DNA of 64,000 nt from an uncultured Phycisphaerae bacterium (lineage in GTDB: Bacteria > Planctomycetota > Phycisphaerae > UBA1845 > Fen-1342), in contig CALGJV010000040.1 in the NCBI GenBank assembly GCA_937928595.1, positions 1-64,000 of the forward strand, in the 5' to 3' direction. Every line of letters starts with the position of its first letter. Positions within the stretch are counted from its first letter, which is position 1. The notes below the pieces were generated by a model. That model saw only the letters and a list, made by a program, of their open reading frames with translations. It ran no database searches and was not told where the DNA came from. A program made the position numbers and the translations under genes. This document shows positions 33,087 through 59,539 of this stretch, in pieces.

Positions 33087-34781
<1,695 letters not shown>

Positions 34782-53694: not shown

Positions 53695-54813
53695 CTACTC
53701 GTAGCGACCGAACCGCCGCACCTCGTCCAGCAGCCAGCGGTACGTCTCGAGCGTCACGCCCGGCGGGATCGAGTGGTCTGAGTGGTACATGTACCCGCGG
53801 TACTTCATCGCCGCGGCCATCTTCGAGTGCAGTTCGGCCTGGATCCGGTCGCGGTCGTTGGTCGCCAGCACCATGACGTCGATGTTGCCGCAGAAACCGA
53901 GCCGATCGCCGTACTGCGGCGCCAGCTCGCGCACGTCCATGCCGGCGCGGCTCTCCATCGGGTTGATCATGTCGACGCCGGCGTCGATGAAGTGCGGAAT
54001 CAGCTTGCGGATGTCCCCGTCGGAGTGCAGGATCACCGGCATCCCGCGGGCGTGGAACTCGTCGAACAGCCGCTTGTGGCAGGGGTACACGAACTCGCGG
54101 TAGTGCTTCGGGCTCATAAAGGGGCCGTTCTTGTAGGCGATGTCGCCGTAGATGAACGCCCCGTCGCAGGTCATGCCCTCGGCCTCGCACAGCCGGAACA
54201 TGTCGATCTCGAACTGCGTGTACGTCGCGAATACGTCGCGGATCCAGTCCGGCTGCTTGAGCATCGCCTTGCACAGCTGTTCGTGGCCGAGCACATCCTT
54301 GACTGACTCGATGACCTCTACGCCCGCGAAGCACACGAACATGTCGCGCTCGCGGGCGCGGCGATAGCGCGGCCAAAACTCCACCCAGCGAATGCGGTCG
54401 CGGCTCGCCTGAAGCAGCGGCTTGACGCGCGCCCACTTCTCGGGCGTGTCGATGCCGAAGCGCACATGCTCCGGCGTGCCCATCTTGTGCCTCCACCAGC
54501 GCAGCTCGGCGTCGTTGCCGTCCCGCAGCAGCACCCACTCGTCGGTCTCGTCCAGGACGGTCGGCGCGACCATCCGCAAGCGCTGGTCCGGCCAGGCCAC
54601 CTGCATCAGGTCAAAGTCGAAATACTCCCACAGCGTGCGTTTTTCGTGCGTGCCCGCCTGCGCACCGTGCATCCCGCACCACAGGTCCGGGTCGCCGATC
54701 CGGCGGACATACTCCGCCTCGGTCTCGGCCCAGAACCAGTCGTACATCGCCACGCGGTCCGCCGGCCGGCGGGCCAGGCAGCGGGCGACACGTTCCTTCG
54801 ACGTCAGCGGCAT
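53695..54813 (-). CDS. Uroporphyrinogen decarboxylase (UroD) family methyltransferase-like protein
   Basis: The protein has 372 residues with a UroD-like TIM barrel, the fold shared by MtaA/MtbA methyltransferases. It carries VILHSDGDIRKLIPHFIDAG (residues 260-279) and INPMESRAGMD, seen in the catabolic subgroup adjacent to corrinoid proteins. The H-x-C zinc motif of MtaA is changed to H-x-D (His263, Asp265), so metal use may differ. The start is ATG at 54813; 17 upstream codons in frame look unrelated. It lies 74 bases downstream of the corrinoid protein gene and is probably co-transcribed with it. It is not a heme-biosynthetic HemE by its motifs. Confidence 0.8.
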   Translation of the reverse strand: MPLTSKERVARCLARRPADRVAMYDWFWAETEAEYVRRIGDPDLWCGMHGAQAGTHEKRTLWEYFDFDLMQVAWPDQRLRMVAPTVLDETDEWVLLRDGNDAELRWWRHKMGTPEHVRFGIDTPEKWARVKPLLQASRDRIRWVEFWPRYRRARERDMFVCFAGVEVIESVKDVLGHEQLCKAMLKQPDWIRDVFATYTQFEIDMFRLCEAEGMTCDGAFIYGDIAYKNGPFMSPKHYREFVYPCHKRLFDEFHARGMPVILHSDGDIRKLIPHFIDAGVDMINPMESRAGMDVRELAPQYGDRLGFCGNIDVMVLATNDRDRIQAELHSKMAAAMKYRGYMYHSDHSIPPGVTLETYRWLLDEVRRFGRYE

Positions 54814-54887
54814 CTCACACCTGTACCGGCCGAGCCGCGACGGCCGCCCGCATTCGGCGACCACGGCCCCCGGCGGCGAACGACCGC

Positions 54888-55526
54888 TCAGCGCTTGTTG
54901 ATCACGAGGGACTTCGCCAACTCCGCCCCGGTCGCGGCGTCGCGGCCGTAGCCGTTGGCGCCGATCTTGTCCGCATATTCCTGCGTAACCGGGGCGCCGC
55001 CGACGATGATGGTCGGCGTGGGCTGAACCTCGGCCTTGAGCTTCTTGACGGACTGCTCCATCATCGGCATGGTCGTCGTCAGCAACGCGCTCATCGCGAC
55101 GACGTCCACCTTCCGGCTCAGACAGACCTCGACGAACTTTTCCGGCGGCACGTCCACCCCCAGGTCGATCACCTCGAACCCCGCCCCCTCCAGCATCGTC
55201 GCGACCAGGTTCTTCCCGATGTCGTGCAGGTCGCCGCGCACGGTGCCGATAATCGCCGTGGCCTCCGGCTTCACCCCGGCCTTCGCCAGGTGCGGCTTCA
55301 GCAGATTGGTCCCCGCCTTCATCGCCTCCGCCGCGATCAGCACCTCCGGCACAAAGTACTCGCCTTCCCGAAACCGGCGCCCCACCTCGGTCATCCCCTT
55401 CAGGAGTCCGTCCTGAAGCACGGCCTTCGCGGATGTGCCCGCGACCAGTGCCTGTTCCACCAGCTTGGGAGTGCTTACTTCGTCGCCGTCGATCACCGCC
55501 TGCGCGATCTGCTCTAGCACCGACAT
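54888..55526 (-). CDS. Corrinoid (B12-binding) methyl-carrier protein, MtaC/MtbC-like
   Basis: This protein carries a cobalamin that cycles between the Co(I) and methyl-Co(III) states. It has 212 residues, the normal size. An N-terminal helical cap domain (about 1-85) is followed by the Rossmann-type B12 domain with the base-off motif Asp99-x-His101-x-x-Gly104 in GDLHDIGKN, then SALLTTTMP and VGGAPVTQEYADKIGA. The histidine would coordinate cobalt. It sits between the UroD-like gene downstream and an MtaA-like gene upstream, close to an MtaB homologue. The gene name mtaC is plausible but the methyl donor is not proven. Confidence 0.9.
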   Translation of the reverse strand: MSVLEQIAQAVIDGDEVSTPKLVEQALVAGTSAKAVLQDGLLKGMTEVGRRFREGEYFVPEVLIAAEAMKAGTNLLKPHLAKAGVKPEATAIIGTVRGDLHDIGKNLVATMLEGAGFEVIDLGVDVPPEKFVEVCLSRKVDVVAMSALLTTTMPMMEQSVKKLKAEVQPTPTIIVGGAPVTQEYADKIGANGYGRDAATGAELAKSLVINKR

Positions 55527-55583
55527 GTCCTGCTCCGCTGAACGGCCACGGGGCTATCCGGCCGCGGCCTGACTATTCCGAGC

Positions 55584-55589
55584 ACTATA
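55584..55589 (-). promoter_or_regulatory. Possible -10 element (TATAGT) for the corrinoid protein gene
   Basis: On the leftward strand TATAGT lies 57 bases before the ATG at 55526. No cobalamin-riboswitch box was seen in the 142-bp gap. A CTTTG/CAAAG inverted repeat (55591-55606) flanks it. Confidence 0.35.
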
Positions 55590-55668
55590 CCTTTGGGCTG
55601 ACAAAGCTGCTAGACTCATTGGGATGGAATGTTTCAGCCCGGCCTCCGCCACGAGGGGCCGGTGTGCC

Positions 55669-56730
55669 TCACGGCACCCGCACGTTCATGAACGCCTCGA
55701 CCTTCCGGCGGATGATCTCGTGCGACCCGGATACGCTGAGGACGTCGCACTCGGACCCCAGGATGAACGGGTGCCCGGTCGCCCGCATGCGGGTGATCAG
55801 TTCGCGCGTCTGCGCCTCGACGACCGCGAGGGGACACACTTCGTCCGAGTAGAAGTTCTTGGTCGGCAGGTTGCCGTACAGCACGACGTCGCGCGGGACC
55901 AGCGCCGCGTCTTCCCACAGCTTGCGCGAGCTGCCGAGACTGAGGATCACCGGCTCGAGCGTGGCGAAGGCCCGTACGAACTCGGGCGTCAGCTCGCCGC
56001 AGCAGTGGAAAACCAGCTCGACGTGCGCGTCGCGCAGTCGGGCCCGCAGCCGCCGGTGGTATGCGAGCACGAGGCGCTCCAGCAGATCGGCACCGCCGGC
56101 AATCTGTCGCGGCGAGAGGTACGCCGTGCTCGCCGCCGGTTCGCACACGAAGATGGCACGGGCCCCGGCCGCGATCTGCTTTTCGACCGACCACAGGATC
56201 ACACGCGTCGCCAGTTCCAGCATCCCTTCCACGAGCCGGACCGGCGGGCTTTCCGCCGCGCTCCGGCCGCGGCCGACCATGAAGAGCGCCGTAATCGGGT
56301 CGGCGATGAGCTTCACCAGAAGCGACAGCGGCCCGATGACCATGCCGATCGGCTCGAGTGCCGTGTGGCCCGCGACGTACCGGATCGCCTCGCAGGTGGC
56401 CTCAAGTCGTACGTTGCGGTGCGTCGGCATGCGCGCCGCGACGCGCTCGAAAATGTCGTCGCCCGGCCAGGTCGCGAAATGGTGTGTGGCGACCGCGTCG
56501 TCCGGCACGTCCAGCATTTCCAGCAACGCGGCCTTCTCGATCGTCAGGTCCATGAGCGGCACGGCCAGCGGCGTGCGGTAGCGCTCCGCCGCGGCGGCCA
56601 CCACCTCGCCCAGGCGGCGGCCGTCCCGCTCGATGGCCTCCGGATCGGGTTGCTCATGAAGAACGAGATGCGCGCCGACCGGCATGCGCAGTCCGCGGGC
56701 GGCGAGTTCGAGGTAATCGCTCCGGTTCAC
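55669..56730 (-). CDS. MtaA-like methylcobamide methyltransferase (UroD family)
   Basis: The protein has 353 residues and a UroD/MtaA TIM barrel. The zinc site expected for MtaA-type enzymes is present: His242-x-Cys244 in FHCCGELTP and Cys328 in GSECDVLS. In methanogens MtaA passes the methyl group from the corrinoid protein to coenzyme M; in acetogens the related enzyme serves tetrahydrofolate. The acceptor here is unknown. The start is uncertain: GTG at 56730 opens the family-like sequence NRSDYLELA, while the frame runs 38 codons further upstream into the divergent promoter region. It lies upstream of the corrinoid gene on the same strand but 142 bases away. Confidence 0.82.
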   Translation of the reverse strand: MNRSDYLELAARGLRMPVGAHLVLHEQPDPEAIERDGRRLGEVVAAAAERYRTPLAVPLMDLTIEKAALLEMLDVPDDAVATHHFATWPGDDIFERVAARMPTHRNVRLEATCEAIRYVAGHTALEPIGMVIGPLSLLVKLIADPITALFMVGRGRSAAESPPVRLVEGMLELATRVILWSVEKQIAAGARAIFVCEPAASTAYLSPRQIAGGADLLERLVLAYHRRLRARLRDAHVELVFHCCGELTPEFVRAFATLEPVILSLGSSRKLWEDAALVPRDVVLYGNLPTKNFYSDEVCPLAVVEAQTRELITRMRATGHPFILGSECDVLSVSGSHEIIRRKVEAFMNVRVP

Positions 56731-56745
56731 GGCCTTCGGGGCTCC

Positions 56746-56751
56746 GTCATA
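56746..56751 (-). promoter_or_regulatory. Possible -10 element (TATGAC) for the MtaA-like gene
   Basis: TATGAC on the leftward strand lies 15 bases before the GTG at 56730, implying a very short leader. Evidence is limited to the hexamer. Confidence 0.25.
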
Positions 56752-56780
56752 CGGGGAAACCACCCGGAGGCCGCCGGCGC

Positions 56781-56786
56781 TACGAT
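56781..56786 (+). promoter_or_regulatory. Possible -10 element (TACGAT) for the mtaB-like gene
   Basis: TACGAT would start transcription near 56793, about 90 bases before the ATG at 56883, placing the palindrome at 56804-56819 just inside the transcript. No clear -35. Confidence 0.3.
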
Positions 56787-56803
56787 ACGGGCGGCACTCC
56801 GCA

Positions 56804-56819
56804 GACCGCCTTGGCGGTC
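56804..56819. promoter_or_regulatory. Palindrome GACCGCC-TT-GGCGGTC between the divergent methyltransferase genes
   Basis: This 7-bp perfect inverted repeat with a two-base centre lies in the 152-bp gap between the MtaA-like and MtaB-like genes. It is a good candidate operator for a dimeric regulator that would control both directions. Confidence 0.45.
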
Positions 56820-56882
56820 CACCCCCGACGCGGCATCGTGGCACGTCGGGGTCTGAATGTCAAGAAAACGACGGGAGTCGTC

Positions 56883-58289
56883 ATGGCGACGGAGCCGATC
56901 TCGAGCACCTTGAAAGCCCGCACGTTCGGGCAGCCGGTCGTCACGGACCCGGCCGCCCTGGTTTTCGGACGGGCGCCGCGGCCCGTGCGCTGCGGGCTGG
57001 GCGGGCTGGTCCTGGGCGGCGGGCAGGTCTATCCCGAGCTCAATTTTACTCTGCCGCCGATGCTCATCGAAGCCTCGACCTGGCCTCGGGTCCGCGACAT
57101 CTACGCCGAAGTCATCGACGGCGCGGTACGGCGGGCCCGGGACCTGGCACTGCCGGGGCTGGTGGTCGAGTTCGAGCAGTTGCCGCCGATGACGGCCGAA
57201 CCGGCCCTGGGGGCCGAACTGACGAAGCTGCTGAAGGAGCGGCTGGCGCAGGCGCACGCGGATTTCGGGCTGAAGGCGGCGCTGCGCGTGACCATCGTCG
57301 ACCTGCGCGAGGAGCTCAAGCCGCCGCCCCGGCGCGGCGGCGCGGCCTGGACCGCGATGCAGCAGTCGCTCGAGCGCAGCGCCGCGGCCGGCGCCGACAT
57401 CCTGTCGATCGAGTCGACCGGCGGCAAGGAAGTGCACGACGCCGCCCTGACGCGCGCGGATCTGCCCGGCATCGTGTTCGCGCTCGGCGTGCTGGCGCCC
57501 CGCGACATGGCCTGGCTCTGGGACCGCTTCGTCGAGGTCGCGACGGCCCACGGCATCATCGCCGGTGGCGACTCGGCCTGCGGTTTCGAGAACACCGCCA
57601 TGCAGCTCGCGGGCCAGAAGATGCTGCCCGACGTGCTGGCCGCGCTGGTCCGCGCGATGTCGAGCGTGCGCAGCCTCGTGGCCTTCGAGCGCGGCGCCGT
57701 CGGCCCTTCCAAGGACTGCGCCTACGAAGGCCCGGTGCTGAAGGCCATTGCCGGCGTGCCGATCGCGATGGAAGGTCGCTCGGCCACCTGCGCCCACCTC
57801 TCGCCGATCGGCAACGTGGCCGCGGCCATGGCCGACCTGTGGAGCAACGAGTCGGTGCCGGATGTGCGGCTGCTCTCCGGGCCGGCGCCGATCGCATCGC
57901 TCGAGTCGCTGGCCTACGACTGCCGCCTGATGAACGCCGCCCTGGCCCGCGGCTCGGAGCGCGAGCTGCGCGATCTGCACGTCGCCGGCGACGTGCCGTA
58001 CAGCGCGCAGGCGGTGCTGCTCTCGCCCGCGGCCACCGTCGCCCTCGCGCGCGCCATCACGGAGGTGTCCGACCCCTACACGCGCACGCTGGCGGCCGGC
58101 CGCAGCGCGATGGCGCTGCTGGAGCAGGCCGAGCGCGACGGTGTCTATGCCGTCCCGGCGCGCGAACGCAAGTGGTTCGACAAGCTGCGAGTGGCGCTGG
58201 ACAACCTGCCGGCCGATGCGGCCGCGCTGCACGCGCAGATTCAGCCGCGGTACGGCGAGCTGTTCAATCCGCGCGAGTATGATCTGTAG
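56883..58289 (+). CDS. mtaB: Methanol:corrinoid methyltransferase (MtaB-like)
   Basis: In the family this zinc enzyme cleaves methanol and methylates the corrinoid protein MtaC. The protein has 468 residues, against about 460 in Methanosarcina barkeri. It aligns by eye along its length with archaeal MtaB, for example ILSIESTGGKEV, AGGDSACGFENTAM, AVGPSKDCAYE and AMEGRSATCAH. The three zinc ligands are kept as Glu177, Cys233 and Cys279, with the 56-residue first spacing of the archaeal enzyme. The ATG was chosen because it has GGGAG upstream and fits the family N-terminus; the frame starts 24 codons earlier. It leads a rightward unit with the activation-domain gene 42 bases downstream. A methylated compound other than methanol is possible. 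Confidence 0.9.
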   Translation: MATEPISSTLKARTFGQPVVTDPAALVFGRAPRPVRCGLGGLVLGGGQVYPELNFTLPPMLIEASTWPRVRDIYAEVIDGAVRRARDLALPGLVVEFEQLPPMTAEPALGAELTKLLKERLAQAHADFGLKAALRVTIVDLREELKPPPRRGGAAWTAMQQSLERSAAAGADILSIESTGGKEVHDAALTRADLPGIVFALGVLAPRDMAWLWDRFVEVATAHGIIAGGDSACGFENTAMQLAGQKMLPDVLAALVRAMSSVRSLVAFERGAVGPSKDCAYEGPVLKAIAGVPIAMEGRSATCAHLSPIGNVAAAMADLWSNESVPDVRLLSGPAPIASLESLAYDCRLMNAALARGSERELRDLHVAGDVPYSAQAVLLSPAATVALARAITEVSDPYTRTLAAGRSAMALLEQAERDGVYAVPARERKWFDKLRVALDNLPADAAALHAQIQPRYGELFNPREYDL

Positions 58290-58331
58290 ACCCCGGCATA
58301 CGCCGGGGACGGTTCGCCGGACGGAGTAGCC

Positions 58332-59111
58332 ATGTCGGTTCGACCGAACGCAGCGCAGCCGCATGCAGAGGTCGCCCCCCTGTTCGGCCCGCGCGTGCTG
58401 CGCCTGCCGCGGGTCGACCCGGACCGCGTCGCGATCTACAAGCTGGTCGGCGTGTCGCCGGAGCGGCCGGCCCACCGCCGCTGGATCGAGCTGGTCGAGA
58501 CGTTGCTGGCGGACCTGCGGCGCATCATGCGTCCGCGGGCGGTGTTTCGGATCGACGGCGTCGTGGCCCTGGAGGCGCGGCGCGTCGTGCTGACGTCCGG
58601 AGCCACGTTTGACGGCGCCATCGGGCAGTTCCTGAAGCACTCGACCATGATGGCGACCTACGTCGCCACCATCGGCTCCGCCGTCGAGCGACTCAGTCGC
58701 GCGTGGCTGAAGGCCGGCAAGGTCATGCAGGGAGCCATCACGGACGCCATCGCGTCGGAGTCAGCCGAGGCCGTCGCCCAGGCCGTGCAGGACGAGGTGC
58801 GAGCCTGGGCCCGCGCGCGCGGCTGCGACATCACGCCGCGCTACAGCCCGGGCTACTGCGGCATGACCGTGCGGCAGCAGGTCCCGCTCTTCGCCACCGT
58901 CGCAGCTGATCGGATCAACGTCCGGATTACACCCAGCTGCCTCATGCTGCCGGTCAAATCGACTTCCGGGCTGATTGGAATCGGACCGGCCGACAAGGTC
59001 GCCCCCGGCGGCTACCCCTGCGAGGCGTGCACCCATCCGAACTGCATGCAGCGGCGGGCGCCCGCGAACCCGGAGTTCGCCCGCTGCGCGTGCGAAGCGC
59101 CGGAGGCGTAG
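58332..59111 (+). CDS. Stand-alone methionine synthase activation-domain-like protein
   Basis: The protein has 259 residues and resembles only the C-terminal SAM-binding activation domain of cobalamin-dependent methionine synthase (MetH). The SAM-site motif RYSPGYCGM is at residues 170-178, followed by ITPSCLMLPVKSTSGLIGIG. The C-terminal cysteine cluster Cys230-x2-Cys233-x4-Cys238, plus CAC near the end, could hold a metal or iron-sulfur centre. It follows mtaB by 42 bases. In MetH this domain reductively remethylates inactive cob(II)alamin with SAM, so here it may rescue the MtaC-like protein in place of the usual RamA/RACo activator. That role is inference. Confidence 0.82.
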   Translation: MSVRPNAAQPHAEVAPLFGPRVLRLPRVDPDRVAIYKLVGVSPERPAHRRWIELVETLLADLRRIMRPRAVFRIDGVVALEARRVVLTSGATFDGAIGQFLKHSTMMATYVATIGSAVERLSRAWLKAGKVMQGAITDAIASESAEAVAQAVQDEVRAWARARGCDITPRYSPGYCGMTVRQQVPLFATVAADRINVRITPSCLMLPVKSTSGLIGIGPADKVAPGGYPCEACTHPNCMQRRAPANPEFARCACEAPEA

Positions 59112-59190: not shown

Positions 59191-59364
59191 TTCCGGCTGG
59201 GCCGCAGCCGGTGCCTGTGCCCGTTCGCACGGGGCATGTGGCCAATGGCCACAGTGGGCCGCCTGATACACGGCTGGCGGTTCAGGCCTCCGAACGGGTC
59301 CGCGACCGTGCACGCACAAGACCGTAGCGGCCGTGGGCTTCGGGACCGCTCGCGAGCGCCCCGT
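59191..59364 (+). other. Structured leader upstream of tRNA-Gln
   Basis: This stretch has no convincing gene but contains successive hairpins: GGCTG/CAGCC near its start, CCCGT/ACGGG with loop TCGC, the perfect TGTGGCC-AAT-GGCCACA (59237-59253), and CCGCC/GGCGG. There is no T tract and no T-box core. It may be a processed 5' leader of the tRNA or an independent RNA. Confidence 0.35.
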
Positions 59365-59436
59365 TACCCGGTGGTGTAATTGGCAACACACCAGGTTTTG
59401 GTCCTGGCATTCCTGGTTCGAGTCCAGGCCGGGTAG
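59365..59436 (+). tRNA. tRNA-Gln (anticodon UUG)
   Basis: The cloverleaf is complete in 72 bases. The acceptor stem TACCCGG pairs perfectly with CCGGGTA, with discriminator G. The D arm is GTGT/ACAC with loop AATTGGCA. The anticodon stem CCAGG/CCTGG holds loop TTTTGGT with anticodon TTG. The T arm is CCTGG-TTCGAGT-CCAGG. CCA is not encoded. tRNA-Gln next to prs-rplY-pth is also seen in Proteobacteria, an old arrangement. Confidence 0.93.
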
Positions 59437-59539
59437 TTTCCCGGCCCGGTCGACCGCCCGGTACGCGGGCTGCCGGACGGACCGCCTGGGCCTCTGACGG
59501 GGCCGCCGGCTCTTCGGCGGCCGCAGGACGACAACACGG

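Follow-up and report, generated by a model that had tools for sequence, protein, structure and literature searches.

A five-gene corrinoid methyltransferase locus

The DNA analysed here (the window) is a stretch of 64,000 nucleotides from the MAG of an uncultured Phycisphaerae bacterium. Five open reading frames were found across positions 53695-59111, three on the minus strand followed by mtaB and an activator gene on the plus strand:

53695-54813, minus strand: uroD2, URO-D superfamily protein, 372 aa from the ATG at 54813 (PF01208, 2.9e-21)
54888-55526, minus strand: corrinoid protein, 212 aa, cap and B12-binding domain (PF02607, 1.2e-23; PF02310, 1.3e-28)
55669-56730, minus strand: MtaA-like URO-D protein (PF01208, 1.1e-14)
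56883-58289, plus strand: MtaB homologue, methanol-corrinoid methyltransferase family, 468 aa (PF12176, 2.6e-141)
58332-59111, plus strand: act, stand-alone MetH-type B12 reactivation protein, 259 aa (PF02965, 1.4e-7)

The four genes named in a preliminary description of this DNA are all present, but the fifth, the PF02965 gene at 58332-59111, had been overlooked. Upstream of the locus lie a nusA-like gene, a histidine kinase gene and a gene for a VTT membrane protein; downstream, a tRNA-Gln (TTG) gene (59364-59437) directly adjoins it, with housekeeping genes. Recent horizontal transfer was considered and rejected, as the G+C and tetranucleotide make-up of the locus is like that of the rest of the contig and matches the genome, leaving no sign of such an event. 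A chance assembly of genes is excluded by the profile scores and by the occurrence of the same gene set in other planctomycetes (L013, L014 and, without mtaB, L115).

The window also encodes a respiratory chain. The COX1 subunit of a heme-copper oxidase is encoded at 33087-34781 with an alternative complex III upstream, and these genes, SCO1 and a UbiA-family gene, probably a heme-O synthase (CtaB), all lie in the 23-39 kb section of the window. A caa3 oxidase had been placed 13 kb from the methyltransferase genes; the oxidase genes are indeed there, but COX1 is ~19 kb away and the UbiA-family gene ~15 kb. With alternative complex III and the COX1 oxidase encoded, a respiratory life is likely, and the gene content suggests that the host is probably aerobic. 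To this extent the earlier reading was borne out: the locus is of the corrinoid methyltransferase kind, its donor enzyme is methanol-type (MtaB), and the genome that carries it also encodes alternative complex III and a heme-copper oxidase.

The MtaB homologue belongs to a deep planctomycete clade

The MtaB homologue matched PF12176 with 472 bits (cut-off 25; E 2.6e-141) over profile positions 13-460 of 460, and its profile matched the Methanosarcina barkeri MtaB structure (2i2x_A) at 2.3e-74 over nearly the full length, with 35% identity over 423 columns. The zinc ligands predicted in the preliminary description, Glu177, Cys233 and Cys279 (numbered from a start at 56883), fall on Glu164, Cys220 and Cys269 of the 2i2x A chain in the alignment. 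All 87 aligned family members have the same three residues. On the methanol-specific equivalog model NF040651, however, the protein scored 374 bits where 720 are required, so it is a family member and not an established methanol isofunctional protein. By family membership, methanol would be the default donor.

The phylogeny called for in the preliminary description placed the window copy with three other planctomycete sequences in one clade (support 100). This purely planctomycete clade is a deep branch and does not fall within the clostridial clade; the archaeal reference forms a long outgroup branch. The four planctomycete proteins keep 103 strongly conserved columns; they share a single change specific to the clade, in a column conserved elsewhere.

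The corrinoid protein and the two URO-D proteins

The corrinoid protein has the cap and B12-binding domains (PF02607 and PF02310) and the expected DxHxxG motif, here D99-L-H-D-I-G. It is the only one of the three PF02607 proteins of the MAG with this motif. The best NCBIfam model was of the MtgC type (199 bits, 370 required), and curated MtaC models gave 130-138 bits against the 420-450 needed for assignment.

In the MtaA-like protein, the reported H-x-C motif and distal Cys were found as H241-C-C243 and C327, the signature of zinc thiol-methyltransferases, and the site is kept in four homologues (L115, L025 and L039 among them). The protein scored far below the thresholds of the MtaA/MtbA models TIGR01463 (25 of 235 bits) and NF041608 (35 of 600 bits). 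Its predicted structure (pLDDT 87) matched MtaA and HemE in a tie at Z ~27, followed by the MetE core at Z ~20.

The second UroD-like protein, uroD2, was likewise recovered (PF01208, 76 bits, E 2.9e-21). In a profile alignment its His263-Ser-Asp265 lies over the His-Ile-Cys of MtaA (4ay7), which puts a carboxylate in place of a Cys. The top Foldseek match of its predicted model (pLDDT 87) was MtaA (4ay8, E 7e-12), and both URO-D folds match MtaA and HemE about equally. Identity of uroD2 to its counterparts in the planctomycete loci L013, L014 and L115 is 64-84%. The zinc motifs E-x14-E-x20-H and D-x27-C-x39-C of O-demethylases were not found in uroD2. Within the URO-D superfamily, His-Cys-Cys marks S-methyltransferases and a carboxylate substitution marks O-methyltransferases (PMC10418091). 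Judged by its site residues, uroD2 is a candidate methyl donor enzyme of the O-demethylase type.

A stand-alone MetH-type activator

The product of the fifth gene matched PF02965 with 31.7 bits (cut-off 25), the structure of TM0269 (1j6r) at 1e-17 and the MetH activation domain (1msk). It carries an RxxxGY motif (R170YSPGY), known from MetH, where it binds SAM. Four Cys residues do not vary among ten homologues, namely C176 and the three of a C-terminal C-x2-C-x4-C motif (C230, C233, C238). This four-Cys family spans the window gene (58332-59111), L113, L115, L116, L117, L118, L013 and L051-L053. Going by this conservation, the motif could hold a metal or an Fe-S cluster, a site not described for MetH.

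Folate, methionine and activase genes in the rest of the MAG

The MAG, which is 97.9% complete, was searched by profile. The preliminary description had proposed looking for genes of methyl-THF oxidation or the Wood-Ljungdahl pathway; one MTHFR of the NAD(P)H type was found, with no second copy beside the locus, and neither CdhC (acetyl-CoA synthase) nor MCH (methenyl-H4MPT cyclohydrolase) gave a match, so that methylotrophy by the H4MPT or Wood-Ljungdahl route is not indicated. The same searches found no RACo activase, MetE or MetH, and the only protein with a pterin-binding domain (PF00809) was dihydropteroate synthase, with no folate methyltransferase module of this domain type.

Two stand-alone homocysteine methyltransferases are encoded, the one on contig C6 being of the MetH/YitJ type. 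In the window genome guaB and a small lipoprotein gene adjoin a homocysteine methyltransferase gene (L099:4902-8718), and in L013 the same two genes adjoin mtaB and the activator gene (L013:7995-12334). The nearness of the C6 module to guaB is no more than suggestive.

The absence of MetH from the MAG is probably an assembly gap and not a loss from the organism. In relatives metH adjoins tgt, and the only tgt of the MAG lies on contig C24 (L131, G000:C24:24000-34003), in queA-tgt order and with 51% identity to the tgt of relatives from the same family. Contig C24 may be a contaminant. As the usual neighbour of metH occurs only on this dubious contig, the assembly probably lacks the stretch in which the organism carries its own tgt and metH. 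In addition, a full MetH is present in two genomes with the locus (G455/L014 and G480/L013), so in these the locus is not simply the methionine synthase. On both grounds, the idea that the locus replaces MetH was rejected.

Distribution and gene sets in relatives

MtaB was found in 6 of the 392 genomes of a phylum-wide sample, and more than 500 loci with relatives were retrieved among ~85,000 GTDB species genomes; MtaB homologues are not rare in bacteria. The best 80 of these >500 relatives are mostly from bacterial MAGs and belong to Acidobacteriota, Ignavibacteriota, Bacteroidota, Verrucomicrobiota, Planctomycetota and Bacillota. A literature search returned nothing on the function of MtaB in Planctomycetes or aerobic Acidobacteria.

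The gene set is not fixed. In L013 and L014, uroD2 and the genes for the corrinoid protein, MtaB and the activator are arranged as in the window, and the MtaA-like gene is absent from beside mtaB; L014 is from a genome of the window's GTDB family (G455) and is matched by locus L114. Conversely, L115 (G459, same family) has the activator, MtaA-like, corrinoid protein and uroD2 genes with no mtaB between them, and in L025 and L039 an MtaA-like gene adjoins mtaB.

Other donors are found with the same partners. G432, of the window's order, and G450 encode an MttB-family donor followed by the activator and corrinoid protein. The loci L117 (4099-7835) and L113 (4082-6963) each have an MttB-family methyltransferase, a MetH-type activator and a corrinoid protein in a row, and only in L117, from G432, does a homocysteine methyltransferase come next. 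The L117 row is possibly a methionine synthase with a quaternary-amine donor. A Bacteroidota locus (L058) has a row of corrinoid protein, mtaB, activator and homocysteine methyltransferase. Within 6 kb of mtaB, 85 loci yielded a homocysteine methyltransferase in 6, a MetH-like match in 1, RACo in 12 and the activator in 8; apart from one doubtful case, no folate methyltransferase like the MetH pterin module was seen beside bacterial mtaB in these 85 loci.

In many bacterial loci mtaB has sugar genes for neighbours (ROK, PfkB, glycerate and GHMP kinases, GH2). In six loci from Ignavibacteriota and Bacteroidota MAGs (L028, L031, L033, L035, L038 and L065; ~15 kb around mtaB), mtaB, corrinoid protein and URO-D genes lie in conserved sugar-catabolism rows with genes for ROK, PfkB, glycerate and GHMP kinases, M20 peptidase, EamA, GFO/IDH and two large proteins without family assignment. 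This setting hints at demethylation of O-methyl sugars. Many Acidobacteriota mtaB genes are solitary: within 6 kb of them, neither a corrinoid protein nor a second methyltransferase was recognised (L021, L026, L027, L029, L037, L043, L044, L048, L055 and L059).

Proposed function of the locus

Taken together, the five genes may form a self-contained corrinoid system with methanol or a similar O-methyl compound as methyl donor and a thiol, homocysteine being the likeliest, as acceptor, a reading that we put forward tentatively, at a little under an even chance. In the order of transfer that we envisage, MtaB, with its Glu-Cys-Cys zinc site, would remove the methyl group of such a donor, uroD2, with its His-Asp site, may serve a second O-methyl donor, and both would pass their methyl groups to the one corrinoid protein. 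The MtaA-like protein, with its His-Cys-Cys zinc site, would then unload the methyl group onto the thiol, in the case of homocysteine yielding methionine; alternatively, the free-standing MetH-type homocysteine module on contig C6 could do the unloading. The activator would re-reduce and re-methylate inactivated corrinoid in the manner of MetH, with SAM and an electron, in place of the ATP-driven RACo of anaerobes. Homocysteine is favoured as the acceptor because of the thiol-type site, the MetH-type activator and the related loci that include a homocysteine methyltransferase. However, the gene for the homocysteine module lies outside the locus, and MTHFR fits a folate route as well. That MtaB, the corrinoid protein, the thiol methyltransferase and the activator make up a folate-independent methionine synthase, in which an aerobe draws the methyl group of methionine directly from methanol or methoxy compounds, we consider somewhat unlikely.

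The acceptor could also be tetrahydrofolate. The preliminary description had suggested an unusual methylotrophy in which methyl groups feed a folate C1 pathway. On such a route the methyl group of methanol would pass over the corrinoid to folate, and its oxidation by way of MTHFR and the C1 pathway would serve energy or assimilation. Since an MTHFR is present, methyl-folate could indeed be oxidised, and alternative complex III and the heme-copper oxidase would suit such a route. The MtaA of Moorella is believed to methylate folate, and folate is a conceivable substrate for a URO-D protein. In Ruegeria, moreover, methyl-folate derived from a corrinoid demethylase is oxidised with MetF2 (PMC12478193). 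The suggestion nevertheless fared poorly in the window MAG, where dihydropteroate synthase is the only pterin-type module recovered with PF00809, the zinc site of the MtaA-like protein is of the thiol type, no second MTHFR adjoins the locus, and the H4MPT and Wood-Ljungdahl markers are missing. With neither RACo, acetyl-CoA synthase, H4MPT genes nor a known folate methyltransferase, the methionine cycle is a more fitting sink than classical methylotrophy would be, and we regard the folate route as unlikely. A methanogen-like transfer to coenzyme M or another thiol appears highly improbable: MtaA is among the best structural matches for either URO-D protein and a His-Cys-Cys site suits any thiol, but the MtaA-like protein scores far below the MtaA/MtbA models, and coenzyme M biosynthesis is rare in bacteria.

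A separate question, compatible with either acceptor, is whether the donor is methanol at all. MtaB and uroD2 might instead demethylate methoxylated compounds such as O-methyl sugars or aromatics, with methanol at most a side substrate. The deep, separate MtaB clade, the score far under the methanol-specific cut-off, the carboxylate in the uroD2 site, as in O-demethylases, and the many bacterial mtaB genes among sugar genes all point this way. The window MtaB nevertheless keeps the three zinc ligands and the 103 conserved columns with a single clade-specific change, and no sugar genes adjoin the window locus. We find this option rather doubtful.

MtaB is taken to mark methanogens and acetogens that use methanol, but its homologues occur across Acidobacteriota, Bacteroidota, Ignavibacteriota, Planctomycetota and others. 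Should these proteins channel methyl groups from methanol or methoxy compounds into the methionine cycle, many "methylotrophy" annotations in metagenomes would be wrong, and a folate-independent origin of the methyl group of methionine could be put to the test. The locus further suggests that, in a demethylase, a domain of the MetH type can do the work of the ATP-driven RACo activase.

Comparison with known systems

The locus resembles the MtaABC system of Methanosarcina and its acetogen equivalents in the MtaB zinc ligands, the corrinoid protein and the His-Cys-Cys URO-D protein as second methyltransferase. It differs in that its MtaB is only 35% identical to that of M. barkeri, its corrinoid protein scores nearer to MtgC than to MtaC, its MtaA-like protein falls far below the MtaA models and a MetH-type activator takes the place of RamA/RACo, in a MAG with neither methanogenesis nor the Wood-Ljungdahl pathway. 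Type 1 mlp clusters (PMC10418091) likewise combine several URO-D methyltransferases with a corrinoid protein and no folate methyltransferase; unlike the window locus, they come with a Ram/RACE activase, lack MtaB, have His-Cys-Cys at nearly all sites, and occur in obligate anaerobes.

MtgBCDE of Ruegeria pomeroyi and the split MetH of Phaeobacter (PMC12478193, PMC5764234) come from aerobic bacteria, as the window host presumably is. In Ruegeria, one corrinoid protein is common to glycine-betaine demethylation and methionine synthesis (PMC12478193), which sets a precedent, though from another donor, for the methionine-cycle sink proposed here. Shared features are a corrinoid protein encoded on its own, connecting demethylase and methionine cycle as we propose for the window, and a MetH-type homocysteine module encoded apart (on contig C6 in the window MAG, G000:C6). 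In the window, however, MtaB would be the donor enzyme where those systems have an MttB-family protein, a PF02965 protein would act as activator instead of RamA and DUF1638, and the MAG has no counterpart of the pterin module MtgD or of the RACo-type activase. The split MetH of Thermotoga maritima (TM0268 and TM0269, 1j6r) offers the likeness of a stand-alone MetH activation-domain protein, which in the window is paired with MtaB and URO-D methyltransferases and carries an extra C-terminal Cys motif.
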